Shown piece by piece: positions 1-26,003 of a stretch of DNA of 54,678 nt. The stretch spans positions 1-54,678 of the forward strand of contig CACOIH010000008.1 of the NCBI GenBank assembly GCA_902627245.1. Direction: 5' to 3'. A model generated the notes under the pieces. That model made no database searches, was not told where the DNA came from, and saw only the letters and a list, made by a program, of their open reading frames with translations. Made by a program: the position numbers and the translations under genes. The stretch's first letter is position 1, and each line of letters begins with the position of its first letter. The DNA comes from an uncultured Alphaproteobacteria bacterium. Its GTDB lineage: Bacteria; Pseudomonadota; Alphaproteobacteria; HIMB59; GCA-002718135.

Positions 1-219
1 AAAGCAAAAAATGGTTTTATTCAAGGCAACTTTGATGAAAAATTAATGCTTTTAAATACAGATCAATTTAAACAAGAGCTTAATAAATATACTGAATTTA
101 TGAAAACTATAGAAAATAGAGATGGATGGGTTTGTGGTCTTGGGCACGGCATAAACAAGAAAACACCAGAAAAAAATGTTCATTTATTTGTAGAAAATAT
201 AAGAAAAGAATTTAGCTAA
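1..219 (+). CDS. hemE: Uroporphyrinogen decarboxylase, C-terminal fragment (runs off the left edge)
   Basis: Reading frame 1 is open from base 1 to a TAA at 217-219 and gives about 72 residues. It carries the family's C-terminal signature: an NGFIQGNFDE-like stretch, GWVCGLGHGI, then TPEKNVHLFVENIRKEF. HemE decarboxylates uroporphyrinogen III to coproporphyrinogen III in the cytoplasm. The hemH start lies 5 bp downstream, a normal hemE-hemH arrangement. A second piece of hemE, the N-terminal half, sits in opposite orientation at about 445-1036. The two pieces do not overlap in protein coordinates, so whether this copy is complete to the left cannot be seen. Confidence 0.9.
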   Translation, partial: KAKNGFIQGNFDEKLMLLNTDQFKQELNKYTEFMKTIENRDGWVCGLGHGINKKTPEKNVHLFVENIRKEFS

Positions 220-224
220 TAAAT

Positions 225-445
225 ATGGTTAAATATATTGGTGAAAAAAACTATGAACATGGAACCAAGGAAGCTGTAGGTATTTTAATCACAAACTTAG
301 GAACTCCTGATGCCCCTGAGAAAAAAGAATTAAAAGTATATCTAAATCAATTTCTTTCTGATCCAAGAGTTATTGAACTCCCAAAAATACTTTGGCAAAT
401 TTTACTAAAACTTGTAATTTTACAAATAAGACCTGCTAAATCATA
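225..445 (+). pseudogene. hemH: Ferrochelatase N-terminal fragment, cut by an inverted junction
   Basis: The ATG at 225 begins a typical ferrochelatase N-terminus: GILITNLGTPDAPEKKELK, then YLNQFLSDPRVIELP and an IRPAKS segment at about residue 73. Homology stops there. The frame stays open to 686, but those residues are the antisense of hemE, not ferrochelatase. A whole enzyme is about 320-350 residues, so this fragment cannot insert iron into protoporphyrin. The break lies at roughly 438-460. The gene is probably intact in the real genome and broken here by a chimeric or inverted join. Confidence 0.8.
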
Positions 446-1036
446 TAATGAACTGTCAAATATCATAACAATTTCTGCCCCAGCTTCTAATTGCAATTTA
501 ATATTTTGCTTTAATAAAGGTACAAGAGTTGAAGATAAAAAATCAAAATATAATTTTTTGTTATCATTATTAAAATGGTCCTTACCAAATGCATATCTAA
601 TTAATGTCCATGGACCACCAACAAAACCAATAAGGCTTTTTGAATTTGGTATACTTTCTCTAGTAAATTTAATCGCTTCTGCCTGAAATTTTAAATGCTC
701 AATAGCTTTATTTATATTGTTATAATTTTTGTAATTATTAGCATTTATAAATGAGCTAAATTTTGGAGCAGGATCGAACTTCAATTCAAGTCCCAATCCT
801 TCTAAAACAAAAAGTATATCACTAAATAAAATAGCTACATCAAAATCAAATTCATCTATTGGACCCTTCGCAACTTCTGCTGCAAGTTCAGGTGTTTTGC
901 ATAATTGTTCAAAAGTGTATTTCTCTTTTAATTTTCTATAATGAGAATGATATCTGCCTGCTTGTCTCATAAACCATATTGGAGGTACAGCTTGTCTTCT
1001 CTTTAAAAGAGCATTTTGGAATAGAATATTTGCCAT
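445..1036 (-). pseudogene. hemE: Uroporphyrinogen decarboxylase N-terminal fragment, cut by an inverted junction
   Basis: ATG at 1036. The first ~197 residues are clear HemE: PPIWFMRQAGRYHSHYR (substrate-site segment), DVAILFSDIL, GFVGGPWTLIRYAF and LEAGAEIVMIFDS. After IFDS the frame runs to 347 through sequence that is antisense hemH, so the true homology ends at about 445-460. The remaining C-terminal third is absent on this strand, and a C-terminal piece lies at 1-219 on the other strand. The start overlaps the 3' end of the hemD-like region (1003), giving the order hemCD-hemE, which hemH would normally follow. Confidence 0.85.
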
Positions 1037-2545
1037 TTTATATTTTTATTTTTTTTTTTCCAACTATCATAAGATAACTCAACAAATAGATTTTTATCAT
1101 TACCTAATATTGAGTATATCTCATTATAGGTATTTCCTGGGCCACAATAGTGGTATCTTTCTTTTAATTCTGGATACTTTTCAAGCGTATATTTAAACGC
1201 AGAAGAACTCATCCAGTAAAAGTGTTTTTTTTCATTAATATTAATTTCAAAATCTAGTTTTTCGAGCTGGTAACTGATTATTCTATCACCAATTTTTGAA
1301 ATTGGCGCATCTTTATGTGTTAATTTTATCCAAGAAAAAGTTGTTAGAGATGAAATATCATTATCAAAATCTTCCCCAAGACCATCTGAACTTCCATTCA
1401 CCCATATGCCTTTAGAAGCGAGTTGTTTCCATGTTTTTTAAACCACTCGACCAAACAATATTTTCTGAATTAATTTTGGTTTTATTGGGGAGCGAACTAA
1501 CTCGAGATATAAATATACACTTATTTTTTAAATTGCTTATTATGTCTATAGAGTCACTTATTTGTTTTCGATTAAAAATTTTATAATTATTTAGTTTCTC
1601 AGGATATATTTCTTTGTAACTATTCAAAATAATTTCATTCTTTTTATTTGGTTTTAAATACCAATCTTCAAAGTGATTGCCATCTTCGTCTTCACCTCTT
1701 TTAGAAACTACTGTTCCGTGACTATGATTTATGTAAGACACACCAATTTTTTGATGACAACCACCTCCATATTCTTTTAATACTCTTCTCTCATTTTCAA
1801 CACTATCAAAATCTATTTTAAAATTTATTTTTTTTAATACGGAATTTAGATCATTATCCTCTGTTCTTGTCTCTATTGCCAGAGCTCCTTGTCCAGGAGA
1901 ACAAGGATTAATAGATAGTGGAACAATTGTCCAAAAACATTGATCAATATATTTTTTTAGTTCTATTTTTAAGTCTTGGAATTTTGGTATTTGATTTGAC
2001 ATTATTCTATCAATTGCAGCTTTGGCAACAATGAAGCCATCGTTTTCAGGATCATTTAGAAATTTTTTAAAACGAGTTGGGATATTCCCTCTTATATTGT
2101 TGAAAGTAATTTTATTATATTTTATTGGAAGATAATTTCTTATAAAATTTTCTAAATTATACTTTCTTCTTGGTGAAGAACATAAAATGCTTATCGAGTT
2201 ATCTTTATGAGTCTTGTTTTTTTTTATAAATAAAATATCTCGTTTGTCGGATCTTTTTAATGTTGCAGAAATTATAGTTTTGTCTCCAACTTCAATAGGT
2301 AAATCTTTCCATGAATGTACTATTAAATCACATTTTTTATTTATTAGTTCATCTCTTAAGTCATTAGTAAATACTCCTTCAGATGACATTTCTGATAAAG
2401 GTGTAATTAAATCTTTATCACCTGAAGTACTTTTAGCAACATACTCGATTTCTATTTTTGGGTATTTAATCATTAAATTATCTCCAAACTCATGAGCTTG
2501 GATGATAGCTAAATCACTTTTTCTTGATAATACTCGTATTTTCAT
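1003..2545 (-). CDS. hemC: Fused hydroxymethylbilane synthase / uroporphyrinogen-III synthase, frameshifted
   Basis: Residues 1-310 are porphobilinogen deaminase. SRKSDLAIIQA and VHSWKDLP are visible, and the dipyrromethane-cofactor cysteine is C263 in GGGCHQK. The frame ends at 1412, but the next frame (from about 1436 down to 1003) continues as a HemD-like domain with WKQLASKGIWVNGSSDGLGE, FYWMSSSAFKY and a CGPGNTY motif. Removing one base from the T run 1434-1439 (plus strand) joins them into about 513 residues. HemC-HemD fusions of this look are known from Leptospira, and the HemC part resembles that type more than usual alphaproteobacterial HemC. The 11-T run at 1049-1059 may also hide the true stop. 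Either a sequencing error or a real pseudogene; error is more likely. Confidence 0.8.
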
Positions 2546-2617
2546 GGATTATAATTTCTCACATAACACTATATAATAATTATATGAATTTATCATATAC
2601 GAAGCTAAAAAGAAAAT

Positions 2618-3179
2618 ATGGTTAATTTTAAGGGCACAAAGACATCATGGGGTTTAATTGCCAAATTATTTCATTGGTCTATAGCGCTTTTATTATTTTG
2701 GCAGGTTGCAACTGGGATAAGTCTTCATAATATGGAATTTTCTCCATTGAAAATTGGGATTATTGGCTCTCATAAATTTTTTTGGAACTGTAATTTTTAC
2801 TTTAGTAGTTCTTAGGCTACTTTGGCGTTTTTTTAATACTCATCCAAGATACAATAATATTCCTGCGCACCATAAAATCATATCTAGCCTGGTTCATTTA
2901 GGTCTTTATTTTCTGGTAATTTTTATTCCAATACAAGGAACATATATGACCTGGGTTGGAGGCGGAGATGTATTTCTTTTAGGAATAATTAAGATTCCAG
3001 CATTAGTGGAAATGGATTTTTTTTTATATGATACAGCGCTAAATGTTCATTATTACAGTGCTTTACTTCTAACTGCATTATTTTCAGTACATATTTTGGC
3101 TGCACTTTATCATAGATTTTTAATTGGCGACCCCTATGGAGTTTGGGGCAGAATGGCTTTTAAAAATTGGAAGGTGTGA
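2618..3179 (+). CDS. Cytochrome b561 family protein, frameshifted
   Basis: The N-terminal part (2618-2815) has KLFHWSIALLLFWQVATG, with the first haem histidine. The rest (in frame from about 2784 to 3179) has HHKIISSLVHLGLYFLVIF, an FFLYDTALNVHYYSA segment and FSVHILAALYHRF with further haem-ligand histidines. Removing one T from the run 2777-2783 fuses SHKFF with GTVIFTLVVLRLLWR and gives about 186 residues, the usual size for this four-helix dihaem membrane protein. Such proteins pass electrons between membrane quinols and periplasmic or other acceptors. It stands alone between hemC (divergent) and hemA (55 bp downstream). The break is most simply a homopolymer error. Confidence 0.8.
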
Positions 3180-3234
3180 CAATTCATCAAATTAATTACT
3201 TACAATAAACCTTTGCATGAGATAACTATAAATA

Positions 3235-4467
3235 ATGGATTACAGGAAGTTTTTTAATACAGAAATAGAAAAATTTAAAGATCAAGGTCTTTATAGAAAA
3301 TTTAGAAATATCGATAGACCAATCAAAAGTTTCCCTAGTGCAGACGAAAAAGCTCTTGATAGTGAGAGAGAAGTTGAAGTTTGGTGCTCAAATGATTACC
3401 TCAATATGAGTCAACACCCTGAAGTTGTTAATGATATTGTTAAAACTCTTCTTGAATACGGATCTGGCTCTGGTGGTACAAGAAATATTTCTGGAACATC
3501 AACTTTTCACACGGATTTAGAAGCAAAATTGGCAGATGTGCATAACAAAGATGCATCTCTTTTATTTGCTTCAGCATATACTGCAAACCAATCGACTCTA
3601 TGGACTCTTGGTAAAAAAATTAAGGATATTGAAATATTTTCTGATGAACTAAATCATGCTTCACTTATTCAAGGAATAAAAAACAGTGGTGCTAAATGCC
3701 ATATTTTTAGACATAATGATGTAGACCATTTAGAAAGTTTACTTAAAGAAGTTAAAAAAAGCACTCCAAAAATGATAGTTTTTGAAAGCTTATATTCTAT
3801 GGAAGGCATAAGATCTCCAATAATAAAAATTGTTGAACTTGCAAAAAAATATAATTGTATGACATATTTAGATGAAGTTCACTCAGTTGGTCTATACGGC
3901 GAAGACGGCAAAGGTATTGCTGTCGAGATGGGAGTCGAGGATCAAATTGATATAATTAATGGTACGCTTGCCAAAGCCTACGGTCAAATGGGAGGATACA
4001 TTGCATCAAGTTTTGAAATCATTGATTATATTAGAAGCTTTTCACCTGGGTTTATATTTACAACTTCAATATGTCCTTCAATAGCTGCAGGATCTTTAAA
4101 AGCAATTGAAATCGTTTCTATGGCTGAGCAATTAAGAATAAGGCTCAAGGAAAACTCTTCATATATTAGACAATTGTTAGACTCAGTAGCAATACCCTAC
4201 ATAGATACTAACTCCCATATTGTAGCTGTTATGGTCAATGATCCTTTTTTATGCAAAAAAGTCTCTCAGGATTTAATTGATGATCATAAAATTTATGCTC
4301 AACCAATATTCTATCCAACTGTTCCAAAAGGTTTGGAAAGATTAAGGGTTACAGTAACACCTAAACATAGAAAAGAGCATATAGATAAGATGGTAAGGGC
4401 TTTAGATAAAGTTTGGGCTAAAAATAAGTTACCCAGAAGAAATATTAGTAAAATATCGACAATCTAA
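3235..4467 (+). CDS. hemA: 5-aminolevulinate synthase
   Basis: 410 residues, the usual length. It condenses glycine and succinyl-CoA to 5-aminolevulinate, the first step of the C4 tetrapyrrole route, with PLP. Visible features: EVWCSNDYLNMS near residue 50, the glycine-rich GSGSGGTRNISGT (77-89), YLDEVHSVGLYG with PLP-contacting D213 and H216, and the PLP lysine K247 in TLAKAYGQMGGY. Its presence together with hemCD/hemE nearby makes this a haem locus. The C4 pathway is characteristic of alphaproteobacteria. It is followed after 5 bp by a convergent EamA gene. Confidence 0.95.
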   Translation: MDYRKFFNTEIEKFKDQGLYRKFRNIDRPIKSFPSADEKALDSEREVEVWCSNDYLNMSQHPEVVNDIVKTLLEYGSGSGGTRNISGTSTFHTDLEAKLADVHNKDASLLFASAYTANQSTLWTLGKKIKDIEIFSDELNHASLIQGIKNSGAKCHIFRHNDVDHLESLLKEVKKSTPKMIVFESLYSMEGIRSPIIKIVELAKKYNCMTYLDEVHSVGLYGEDGKGIAVEMGVEDQIDIINGTLAKAYGQMGGYIASSFEIIDYIRSFSPGFIFTTSICPSIAAGSLKAIEIVSMAEQLRIRLKENSSYIRQLLDSVAIPYIDTNSHIVAVMVNDPFLCKKVSQDLIDDHKIYAQPIFYPTVPKGLERLRVTVTPKHRKEHIDKMVRALDKVWAKNKLPRRNISKISTI

Positions 4468-21198: not shown

Positions 21199-22201
21199 CC
21201 ATAACCCCTTTACGAATTCTTGGATCTATTATTGCTAAAATTATATCAGTAACAAAATTAACAAAAACAATTGTTGCAGTTAGTAAAAATATAATTGCCC
21301 CAGCAAGTTGCTGGTCATTAGAGCGAGCTAAAGCTTCAATTAAAAGTGCCCCAGATTCAGTTAAAATTAGAATCAAAGCAACAATTGGAAGTGCACTAAA
21401 AATTCTATTTAAATCAAAACCCAAAGAATTTATTACTGGTCCCAAAGAATGTTTAGCTGGATAACGTAATAATAAACTCATTCCTGAAATTCCTCTTGCT
21501 CTAGCTGCCATTACGTATAATTTATCACTTTCATCCAACATTAACGCCCTAACTGTTTGTAAGGCAAAAGCTGTTGCATTCCATCCTAAAACAAAAATAG
21601 GAAGCCAAGCTCTGCTAAGAAAATCTTTTACTCTATCACTTGACCAAGGAACATTTTCAAATTCTTCAGAAAAAAGACCTGTCATGGTATCACCGTAGTA
21701 AATTGTCATAAATAGCATAATACATAATGCTACTAAAAAATTTGGTAATGCGATTCCTAAATAACTTACAAATTTTAATGCATTATCGAGTGATCTGTAT
21801 TTTGTGGTAGCAGATATAATTCCAACAGGAATGGCTATCGCATAAGAAAATATTAATGCTGTTATACATATTAGCAAGGAGAGCATGAATCTCCCACTTA
21901 GTAATTCATTTATATCCATTCTTAATATACAACTTTGTCCAAACTCGCCTTTCAAAACAATATTTGATATCCAGCTACTGAACCTTACAACAAATGGCCT
22001 GTCTAAACCTAATTTTTTTTCTTCAGCTTCAATATCTTCTATTGTAATGTTTGAACCTTGAGTGTTCTTAAATGCTAAGTATCTTTCTGCACAATTTGAG
22101 GGCACAAATTCCATTAATGAGAAAACTATTAGACTAACTAGAAAAAGAGTTAAACATGCCAATAATGCTCTTGTTACAGTGAACTGAATAAAATTAATCA
22201 T
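21188..22201 (-). CDS. ABC transporter permease (DppB-like)
   Basis: 337 residues. RALLACLTLFLVSLIVFSLM is helix one. Then come the family's periplasmic domain with LGLDRPFVVRFSSWISN, helices around LLICITALIFSYAIAIPVG and the coupling loop MAARARGISGMSLLLRYPAKHS. It forms the membrane channel with the DppC-like subunit. A strong hairpin (22229-22256) separates its start from the binding-protein gene, so its expression is probably lower than that of the binding protein. Confidence 0.9.
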   Translation of the reverse strand: MINFIQFTVTRALLACLTLFLVSLIVFSLMEFVPSNCAERYLAFKNTQGSNITIEDIEAEEKKLGLDRPFVVRFSSWISNIVLKGEFGQSCILRMDINELLSGRFMLSLLICITALIFSYAIAIPVGIISATTKYRSLDNALKFVSYLGIALPNFLVALCIMLFMTIYYGDTMTGLFSEEFENVPWSSDRVKDFLSRAWLPIFVLGWNATAFALQTVRALMLDESDKLYVMAARARGISGMSLLLRYPAKHSLGPVINSLGFDLNRIFSALPIVALILILTESGALLIEALARSNDQQLAGAIIFLLTATIVFVNFVTDIILAIIDPRIRKGVMGGS

Positions 22202-22228
22202 TCTTAAATATTTTTAATTAAATAGAAT

Positions 22229-22256
22229 AAAAGCGGCAATTAAATTTGCCGCTTTT
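22229..22256 (-). terminator. 11-bp hairpin between binding-protein and permease genes
   Basis: Perfect inverted repeat: left arm 22229-22239, right arm 22246-22256, loop of six bases 22240-22245. The arms are GC-containing (AAAAGCGGCAA / TTGCCGCTTTT) in a very AT-rich setting, and on the minus strand the stem is followed by a T-rich stretch. This position, after the solute-binding gene and before the permeases, is typical of a partial terminator or mRNA 3'-end stabiliser that keeps binding protein in excess. Confidence 0.85.
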
Positions 22257-22276
22257 ATATATATTATTATCCTTGA

Positions 22277-24313
22277 CTAATTAGAAAAATACCACTGTTG
22301 TGGTAAGTAAGGATAAGTTCTGTAATATTCATATGATGCAGTCGTAAACTCTGTAAAGTTTCCTAGTGCATTTCTATGATAAACAGGGAATGGAGGAGCA
22401 ACAGTTCCAATGAACAGAAGATTTCCTGTCATTGTTGCAACTAATTTTTCTCCTAAAGCTGCATTCTCTGCTGAGCCTATTGGTGCAGCTTGAAATGCAG
22501 CAATATCTTCTATCATTTCATAAGCATAACCTGGAGGTTGAACACCAGATTCACCATTTGAGTCAATGTACTCTGACCATAGCATAGCATTTCTATGAGC
22601 AAAATAATCCTCATATGGTGGCACAAAAAGTTTACCTTCACCCATTATTAGAGCTAATGGCATACCTTTTTTCCATGCACCTACATCAAGTTCGTTAGCT
22701 GATTGTGATGATCTGTACTCATCAGGCGTTATTTCTTTAAAGTTAGTTTTTACACCTACCTCATTCCAATAACGTGCAACAAGTTCTACCTCACCGCCTC
22801 CGATACCTTGTGTAGCAAAGTCAATATTTAGAACTAAAGGATCACCATTTGGTAATTCTCTAAAACCATCGCCGTTTGTATCAACAGCGCCAGTTTCATC
22901 TAAAAGTGATTTAGCTAATTCAGGATCATACTGAGCGAAATGTTGAGACCATTTAGCGTCAACAAAGTCAGGTCTTGGTGAAAAACCAATATACTGTTGA
23001 GGAGTACCTAATCCATAATGAATTACATCATTAATTTCATCTCTATTAATAGCAACAGACATTGCCTGACGGAAACGAAGATCGCGGAATAAGCCTCTTT
23101 TAGCTTCATCAGGGTGAGTTAGGTTTAAGCTAAATGCAGCTGATCCAACACCAGGTTTAATTTGAACATTGTATTGTCCAGCCTCAGACCCATCCATTAA
23201 TTGAGGAACTGATTCAAGATTAAGTGATTGCGCTTTGTAATCAACTTCTCCATTAACAAGTTTTAAAATTCTTATTTCATTCTCATTAATGTATCTTTCA
23301 TTTTGATAATCAATGTAAGGTAATTGATTACCAGCAGTATCAACCATATGGAAATAAGGATTTGCAGCATACTTTCTTCCTTCAGTAGTATCTTCAATAG
23401 TAACAAAAGACTCTAATGATGGATAAACGTCAGAAGGAAGATTCGCTACTTTATCTGGAGTTGCTAACAATGGTGATGGTGTATCAGTCCAACATGAATT
23501 ACCATAGTAAGCTTTTAATACATCATATCCATTTTCATATCCTGCTGCCTGAGCTAAAGCATCTGCACCTGAATTTATATCTGGGTGAAATTGACCTAAA
23601 TGATGTTTTGGTGCAAAACCTTGACAATAAGAGTTTGCAAACATTGCAGTTAAACCTGGCTTAGGTGCTGGAAGATTAAATACAACTGTTTGCGCATCAA
23701 CCACATCTACAGTCATTCTTTCACCACCAACCAACAAATAGCCGTAAGGTTTTTCACGGATATTTGAATCCATCATTAAATGATCATACCAAAACTTTAC
23801 ATCATCTGCAGTAAATGGAGCACCATCTGACCACTTATGACCTTTTCTTAAAACAAAAGTCAATTGAGTGTAATCATCATTCCATTCATAAGATTTTGCA
23901 ATGTTAGGAACAATTTGTTGAAGATCATCACTGAAACGTACGAAGTTTACATGTCTAGTTGATAATAAATCTGATGTTCCTGCTTCGGTAGCATTTGATA
24001 GCATTTTAAATGTTCCACCATAACTACCAATTGAATCATAAGGTGAAATAACAAGTGGTTCATCAGGAAGTCTGCTATCTACACTTCCTAATTCACCGTT
24101 ACCTCTAATAGTTGCATTAATAGAAGCTACATTTGGATTTTCTTTAAAGCTCATAGTACATCCAGCTAAACTTTCATATTCTGAAAGTTCAAACTGCATT
24201 GGAAAAGCTCCTCCATCAACCTTTTTGCCTGAGCAATCAGCTGCATAGGTATTAGAGCTTAAAATTAAAGCTGAAAAAGAAAATACCAATGTTAAAAATA
24301 ATTTTTTAAACAT
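22277..24313 (-). CDS. Large extracytoplasmic solute-binding protein (SBP_bac_5 family)
   Basis: About 678 residues from ATG 24313, chosen because GGGAGG (24322-24327) is 8 bp upstream; the frame also allows a TTG at 24328, which lies in that site. Signal peptide MFKKLFLTLVFSFSALILSS, mature from about ADCSG. Family motifs: FVLRKGHKWSDGAPFTADD, LRFRQAMSVAINRDEI and QYDPELAKSLLDETG. It is far longer than the 520-540 residues of peptide-binding relatives; this size class includes oligosaccharide binders such as AgpA. It feeds the permease/ATPase genes downstream. Confidence 0.9.
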   Translation of the reverse strand: MFKKLFLTLVFSFSALILSSNTYAADCSGKKVDGGAFPMQFELSEYESLAGCTMSFKENPNVASINATIRGNGELGSVDSRLPDEPLVISPYDSIGSYGGTFKMLSNATEAGTSDLLSTRHVNFVRFSDDLQQIVPNIAKSYEWNDDYTQLTFVLRKGHKWSDGAPFTADDVKFWYDHLMMDSNIREKPYGYLLVGGERMTVDVVDAQTVVFNLPAPKPGLTAMFANSYCQGFAPKHHLGQFHPDINSGADALAQAAGYENGYDVLKAYYGNSCWTDTPSPLLATPDKVANLPSDVYPSLESFVTIEDTTEGRKYAANPYFHMVDTAGNQLPYIDYQNERYINENEIRILKLVNGEVDYKAQSLNLESVPQLMDGSEAGQYNVQIKPGVGSAAFSLNLTHPDEAKRGLFRDLRFRQAMSVAINRDEINDVIHYGLGTPQQYIGFSPRPDFVDAKWSQHFAQYDPELAKSLLDETGAVDTNGDGFRELPNGDPLVLNIDFATQGIGGGEVELVARYWNEVGVKTNFKEITPDEYRSSQSANELDVGAWKKGMPLALIMGEGKLFVPPYEDYFAHRNAMLWSEYIDSNGESGVQPPGYAYEMIEDIAAFQAAPIGSAENAALGEKLVATMTGNLLFIGTVAPPFPVYHRNALGNFTEFTTASYEYYRTYPYLPQQWYFSN

Positions 24314-24470
24314 ATTTTTTCCTCCCAAATAAGTTTAGTAATAAGTAATTTTTAAACGATTATAAAATAATTACAAAAAATTTATGACGTTTTTATTAAC
24401 TTTTTAGATAGATATTGTATGTATAACTTCAATAAAAGCTATATTTAGTGTTATTTATGCAGTTATATTA

Positions 24471-26003
24471 ATGAAAAAATCAGTTTTATTTATTAGTGTT
24501 GATCAGTGGCGATGGGACTGCTTTGGATTTATGAAAAACAAATATGCTGTTACGCCAAATATAGATAAGTTAGCAAAGCAAGGTGTTTATTTTAAATCAC
24601 ACTTTGCTGGGATAATTCCTTGTGGTCCAGCAAGAACAACTATGCTTACTGGTCTTTATCCATTTATTCATAGATCAACTAGAAATGGCTCTCCATTAGA
24701 TAAAAGATTTACCAATATTGCTAAAGAAATAAAAAGAGCTGGTTATACACCTAAACTATTTGGATATACGGACACAACTTGGGATCCTAGATATTTAAAT
24801 GATAATGATAAAAAAAAATTTACTTACGAATCTCCTATGGAAGGGTTTGATCCTGTTTGTCATTTACCTGAAAGTAATCCTGAGCCTTGGTATAAATATT
24901 TATTATCGAAAGGTTATAAATATAAAAATGCTAAACAACTATATAAAAGAGATTATCCAAAAAAAGGTGAAGCGTTTACTTATAAAGCATGGGATATTAA
25001 AGCAGAAGATTCTGATACTTCTTTTTTAGCAAATCAAGTAATAAAACATTTAAAAAAAACAACAGATCCCTTTTTTTATCATGTATCTTTTTTAAGACCG
25101 CACCCACCTATGTTTGTTTCAGAACCTTGGCATAGCTTAATTAATCCATCAAAAATAAAACTACCATTAAATAATTTAAATTATAAAAAAATGTTATCTG
25201 GGCATCCTATGTTACGAGAGATTGGCAGAAAATTTATGGATGAAAAAAAATATAAAGAAATAAGGTTTAATGAATTAAAAAGTGAAGATGTTAAAAAAAT
25301 AATAGCAGTTTACTTAGGAATGTGTGCTGAAGTCGATTACAATATAGGAAAAATACTTGATACACTTAAAATAAAAAATATTGAAAAGAATACACTAGTA
25401 ATATTTACAAGTGATCATGGAGAATTATTGGGTGAAAATAATTTATGGGGAAAATTAGGATGGTGGGACTCTGCATACAGAATTCCTCTAATTTTTTTCA
25501 ATAAAAATTTAAAAGCTAGAAAGATAAATGATTTTACTGAATCAGTTGATTTAGCGCCAACTATATTGGAATGGCTAGGTTTGAATACGCCAATTAATTG
25601 GAGTGGTATCTCACTTTTACAATATCTAAAAACAGGTAAAAATAAGTTTAACAAAAATTTTGTTATATTTGAGTTTGATTTTAGAGAAAGTAATTATAGT
25701 AAATTTGTTGAAGAAAAAATATTAGAGCCTGAAGAATGTAATTTAGTATGTATAAGAGATAAAAAATGGAAATATGTACATTTTCCAACTCTACCATCAT
25801 TATTATTTAATTTGAAGAAGGATCCCCTTGAAAAGAAAAACTTATCAAATATCAAAAAATATCAAAAAATTAAAAATGAATTACTTTCTAAGCTTTTAAG
25901 TCATAGGTTATTACATCAAGAAAGACAGTTATCAAGCATGCAAGTTTCCTCTAGTGGTGTAAGCACTTCATATGGAAATTCATTGAGAAAGATGGTAAAA
26001 TAA
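24471..26003 (+). CDS. Sulfatase-superfamily phosphonate/phosphate ester hydrolase (PMH type)
   Basis: 510 residues, no signal peptide, so cytoplasmic. The formylglycine motif CxPxR is present as C51-G-P-A-R, so it needs a formylglycine-generating system. Metal ligands: D11 in SVDQWRWD and the D-H pair near residue 314 in FTSDHGELLGENNLWGKLGW. HRSTRNGSPLDKRFTNIAKE and GYTDTTWDPR match the phosphonate-monoester hydrolase / phosphodiesterase branch (Rhizobium PMH is about 514 residues) better than secreted arylsulfatases. Those enzymes are promiscuous for phosphonate, phosphate and sulfate esters. Divergent from the binding-protein gene; 4 bp upstream of a MetE-like gene. Confidence 0.8.
   Translation: MKKSVLFISVDQWRWDCFGFMKNKYAVTPNIDKLAKQGVYFKSHFAGIIPCGPARTTMLTGLYPFIHRSTRNGSPLDKRFTNIAKEIKRAGYTPKLFGYTDTTWDPRYLNDNDKKKFTYESPMEGFDPVCHLPESNPEPWYKYLLSKGYKYKNAKQLYKRDYPKKGEAFTYKAWDIKAEDSDTSFLANQVIKHLKKTTDPFFYHVSFLRPHPPMFVSEPWHSLINPSKIKLPLNNLNYKKMLSGHPMLREIGRKFMDEKKYKEIRFNELKSEDVKKIIAVYLGMCAEVDYNIGKILDTLKIKNIEKNTLVIFTSDHGELLGENNLWGKLGWWDSAYRIPLIFFNKNLKARKINDFTESVDLAPTILEWLGLNTPINWSGISLLQYLKTGKNKFNKNFVIFEFDFRESNYSKFVEEKILEPEECNLVCIRDKKWKYVHFPTLPSLLFNLKKDPLEKKNLSNIKKYQKIKNELLSKLLSHRLLHQERQLSSMQVSSSGVSTSYGNSLRKMVK

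Follow-up and report, generated by a model that had tools for sequence, protein, structure and literature searches.

An inverted hemE-hemH join at a contig end of an uncultured alphaproteobacterial assembly, most probably an amplification chimera

The stretch of DNA analysed here (the window) is 54,678 nt long and is a complete contig, C8, of the assembly of an uncultured alphaproteobacterium (G000:C8:1-54678), so that its position 1 is a contig end. The assembly totals 1,188,358 bases in 47 contigs, with a completeness of 62.42%. The left edge of the window carries parts of hemE and hemH together with a hemC-hemD gene (Table 1). The preliminary description had read there a plus-strand hemE stopping at 219, a hemH starting at 225 and a minus-strand hemE, and the ORF coordinates and profile matches bear this reading out. 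ORF 1-219 matches the URO-D family (PF01208, E 3.1e-11) over profile positions 282-345 of 346 and TIGR01464 over positions 275-338 of 338, the latter under its cut-off, as a fragment; it leads into the start of hemH with the two genes in natural order. The plus-strand ORF at 225-686 (153 aa) matches ferrochelatase only in residues 18-80 (PF00762 profile positions 2-61 of 317), and its remainder past the join is a read-through of antisense hemE. On the minus strand, ORF 347-1036 (229 aa), whose start codon lies at 1036, has a URO-D match limited to residues 3-196 (PF01208 profile positions 3-208 of 346), and its tail outside that match is a false extension into antisense hemH. The 153-aa "hemH" and the 229-aa "hemE" are false composites, as had been suspected. 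The hemC part of the neighbouring gene scores 176 bits against TIGR00212 (cut-off 164), and the hemD part, for which neither profile search matched any family, is named from its position and its counterpart in the relative locus L044.

Table 1. Coordinates of the features at the fold-back and of a second fused frame in the same assembly
Feature	Position	Strand	Basis or remark
hemE 3' end (uroporphyrinogen decarboxylase, last 72 codons)	1..219	+	ORF of 72 aa, cut by contig start
hemH 5' end (ferrochelatase, ~72 of 341 codons)	225..442	+	PF00762 and alignment to hemH of L033/L044
Join AAATC	438..442		Found at both switch points in the nearest relatives, L033 and L044
hemE 5' part (~200 of 332 codons)	438..1036	-	PF01208, BLASTN to L044 and split tblastn matches
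hemC-hemD gene	1003..2545	-	Lies before hemE, as in the natural order; reading frame broken in two
gltX::kdsA fused open frame, 448 aa	639-1982 of contig C38 (L129, G000:C38)		C38 is 3,189 bases long

BLASTN to L044 and L033 places the two arms of the heme block on opposite strands, which agrees with the fold-back originally proposed. Window positions 5-433 (against L044) or 5-442 (against L033) align on one strand, at 80-81% identity, and cover the end of hemE and the start of hemH, while the window from 437/438 onward aligns on the opposite strand and covers the 5' part of hemE, then hemD and hemC. Since both arms are long homologous alignments (about 430 bases with E ~1e-112 for the first; more than 2,000 bases with E 0.0 for the second), the fold-back is not a chance match. 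The strand switch at 438-442 falls at the low edge of the range of 438-460 given for it in the preliminary description. Both arms match the natural hemCD-hemE-hemH block of L033, L034 and L044 at about 73-83% DNA identity, but in the window the block turns back on itself near codon 200 of hemE and codon 72 of hemH. Measured on L044, the distance from one switch point to the other is 618 bp, and 180 bp of hemE are absent from both arms; the codon sum of hemE closes, since about 200 codons on the minus strand, 60 missing and 72 on the plus strand make up the 332 of L044. The middle of hemE and most of hemH are missing, as first described. GC is 0.27-0.29 in three windows spanning positions 1-1000, with no composition break seen at the join, as is expected where both arms derive from one locus.

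To place this arrangement among relatives, the L044 copies of hemE and hemH served as queries against the full set of 41 loci retrieved by hemE searches (L004-L044, L044 itself included). HemE is present in all 41 loci and hemH in 38; the comparison with L044 hemH did not find it in L039, L040 and L041. Wherever both genes occur they are on the same strand (38 of 38 loci, none opposite), and in 36 of the 41 they are adjacent, with a gap of -3 to 22 bases; in two distant relatives they are on the same strand but separated by about 1.4 and 2.5 kb. The strand pattern in relatives thus supports hemCD-hemE-hemH as the natural order, in line with the order assumed at the start. In addition, tblastn with the false 229-aa protein gave matches in 52 of 61 genomes, its own included. 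A match over residues 1-229 was found in its own genome only, the longest other single match covering residues 1-217 (G001), and 24 other genomes gave two matches, to hemE and to the hemH-derived tail, on opposite strands of the same contig. The inverted join is therefore absent from the relatives examined (38 loci with both genes; all others of the 61 genomes searched), a comparison to which a change confined to this cell would be invisible.

The bases at the join itself are few. A pattern listing of 29 loci of the lineage caught the hemH-side site in 23, of which 4, including L033 and L044, have AAATC and most have AAGTC; on the hemE side it caught only L033 and L044, both with AAATC. Because most hemH sequences have AAGTC, the case for shared bases in the window strain comes from L033 and L044. 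Judging from these two nearest relatives, AAATC appears to be shared at the join, the exact shared length in the window strain being uncertain. The two matches of C8 to the comparison genome G063 overlap by 8 bases at the join. A scan of positions 1-2600 gave 20 inverted pairs of 14-35 nt with 71-93% complementarity, the nearest of which to the join (I12, 17 nt, 82%) has its centre about 45 bases away. A palindrome at the join was rejected, as none of these short pairs is centred there, and the same scan found neither a long inverted repeat centred on the join nor a long repeat at it.

The missing segment and what follows it were sought in the rest of the assembly. Apart from nine contigs that read N, it held no further DNA match to the middle of hemE, to the remainder of hemH or to the next two genes of L044, and family searches of this 62%-complete assembly found no ferrochelatase or URO-D match besides those in C8. 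Another contig, C16, is from its base 11 onward collinear with L033 from 9541, in natural orientation. By this collinearity, C8 and C16 are neighbours at one natural locus, of which a stretch of about 2.3 kb separating them is unassembled. The start of C16 that does not align comprises the first 10 bases against L033, the first 299 against L034 and the first 1,026 against L044, so gene content at this point differs among relatives.

An assembly-wide survey of inverted joins compared the 47 contigs with 1,295,914 bases of G063 and aligned 768,392 bases, excluding nine contigs (C39-C47) and 2,500 bases of C7, which read N. It detects inverted joins with alignable arms, as neighbouring opposite-strand pieces within 15 kb. 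Six rows resulted, one each in C8, C38, C2 and C11 and two in C1 (one gene-sized segment), and only in the C8 row do the pieces overlap. The reverse survey, of G063 against the assembly, gave five rows, namely the joins of C8 and C38 again, together with those rows that lie in C1 and C11. The rows of C1, C2 and C11, which have 128-762 unaligned bases at their boundaries and an odd piece of 67-79% identity, were left uncounted; they resemble the differences that any two genomes ordinarily show.

In C38 the gltX frame continues into kdsA, and both genes are broken. In G063 the two arms map to different strands, at sites some 9.4 kb from each other; the 52 bases that separate the arms in C38 do not align and, on visual inspection, are diverged gltX. 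AATAAAAA is present on both sides of the join. Among the matches listed in a search of 61 genomes, the fused protein has a whole-length match in its own genome only, and in at least 24 genomes gltX and kdsA share a contig, where about 10 kb separates them and their strands are opposite. We take the C38 fusion for another inverted chimera of this assembly. One of the genomes with this arrangement, G034, has an extra second copy of gltX. Its contig C13 (25,974 bases) carries a 3,705-base inverted duplication, at 426-4130 and 21845-25549 (L215, L214), with 99.87% identity; the copies lie near both contig ends, each with a gltX, and kdsA is near the centre. This duplication is perhaps another fold-back product.

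The assembly is incomplete, and the nearest named relatives of its genome (AG-457-A08, AG-404-B13 and AG-447-P14) bear AG-numbered names, which we take to be those of single-cell genomes. On these two grounds, we infer that the assembly was made from DNA of a single cell amplified by multiple-displacement amplification (MDA). We conclude, with a probability of about 0.95, that the left edge of C8 is a chimera of such whole-genome amplification and not a real feature. The short-range inversion with deletion, the few bases apparently shared at the join, its position at a contig edge, the incompleteness of the assembly, the natural order in relatives, the continuation of that order in C16 and the second, similar fusion all favour this reading. 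In its account of chimeric junctions, one study of MDA (PMC1855051) lists 475 from an MDA reaction, of which 406 were inverted, 337 of them joining segments separated by less than 10 kb. Of the inverted junctions below that distance, 93.5% had complementary bases, and more than 70% of junctions had 2-21 of them. The model given there is that a displaced 3' end re-primes on a nearby displaced strand, which yields an inversion with an intervening deletion (PMC1855051). The C8 join resembles these phi29 chimeras, as far as that account describes them, in its inverted segments from one natural locus less than 10 kb apart, its deletion and, to judge from L033 and L044, a few shared bases, and among the genomes compared it is private to its sample; one further join of like kind, that of C38, was found in the sample, and both have the form of an inversion with intervening deletion. 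However, the chimeras of PMC1855051, as described there, were in raw reads, whereas the window join is in a contig assembled from DNA that was probably prepared by MDA.

Regarding mechanism, the strand-displacement steps that we infer are as follows. A strand being copied from hemCD into hemE would have had its 3' end displaced near hemE codon 200; this end would have paired, by AAATC or a little more, with a second displaced strand close by, at a site in hemH some 618 bp further downstream, and would then have been extended back through the 5' part of hemH and the 3' part of hemE. The assembler would have followed the chimeric molecule, and the contig would end inside hemE at position 1. The frequency of such joins counts against a chimera, since two inverted joins per 768,392 aligned bases is less than the yield expected from the rate of 1.5 misassemblies per 100 kb (beside 3.0 indels and 5.0 mismatches) given for single-cell genomes in the benchmark portion of PMC11247762, although the survey detects inverted joins with alignable arms only and covered 38 of the 47 contigs. 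The predominance of AAGTC on the hemH side and the variation among relatives at the start of C16 also weigh against it.

The alternative that this cell's lineage carries a real chromosomal inversion with deletion, destroying hemE and hemH, has in its favour the sequence as assembled and the fact that no other hemE or hemH match turned up in the 62%-complete assembly. It would, however, mean that two steps of heme synthesis were lost while hemC-hemD was kept, and it must contend with the lack of such a join in every relative examined, with the resumption of natural order in C16, with a like fusion that breaks gltX and kdsA in the same assembly and with the location of the join at a contig edge, about 440 bases from the end of C8. 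Together these make a real inversion very unlikely; that it marks a lineage without hemE and hemH, sustained by import of heme or of late porphyrin intermediates, is extremely unlikely. Of the two origins offered by the preliminary description, a template switch in MDA is supported by the geometry, the contig edge, C16 and the second fusion, whereas for the other, a real palindromic rearrangement, the inverted repeat arms that would speak for it were not found around the join in positions 1-2600. A pure assembler error, that is, a wrong path or false link with no chimeric molecule behind it, has a certain appeal at a contig end, where errors of this sort tend to arise, and shared bases at a join are expected under either reading. 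Nevertheless, assemblers ordinarily use words far longer than a handful of shared bases, so that reads crossing the join probably existed, and no long repeat was found there to mislead them; we regard such an error as exceedingly improbable beside an amplification chimera.

For annotation, the 153-aa hemH ORF and the 229-aa hemE ORF should not be recorded as gene products, and loss of hemE or hemH should not be deduced from this assembly. Automatic annotation would give truncated versions of ferrochelatase and uroporphyrinogen decarboxylase, one on each strand, from which a reader of pathways might wrongly infer a broken heme pathway. The significance of the join is one of data hygiene only, and it implies nothing new about the organism. 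Contig ends of amplified single-cell assemblies merit a check for fold-backs against relatives, and a single alignment survey exposed two such joins in one assembly. Two frame splits were also noticed. The hemC-hemD gene, a single 502-aa ORF in L044, is divided into ORFs 1412-2545 and 1003-1401 by an extra T in the T run at 1434-1439 (T6 against T5 in L044), which is probably a sequence error. A cytochrome b561-like gene at 2618-3179, which peptide patterns did not find in L033 or L044, is split by a T-run one T longer than in G063 (T7 against T6), and in L034 it is one open frame.
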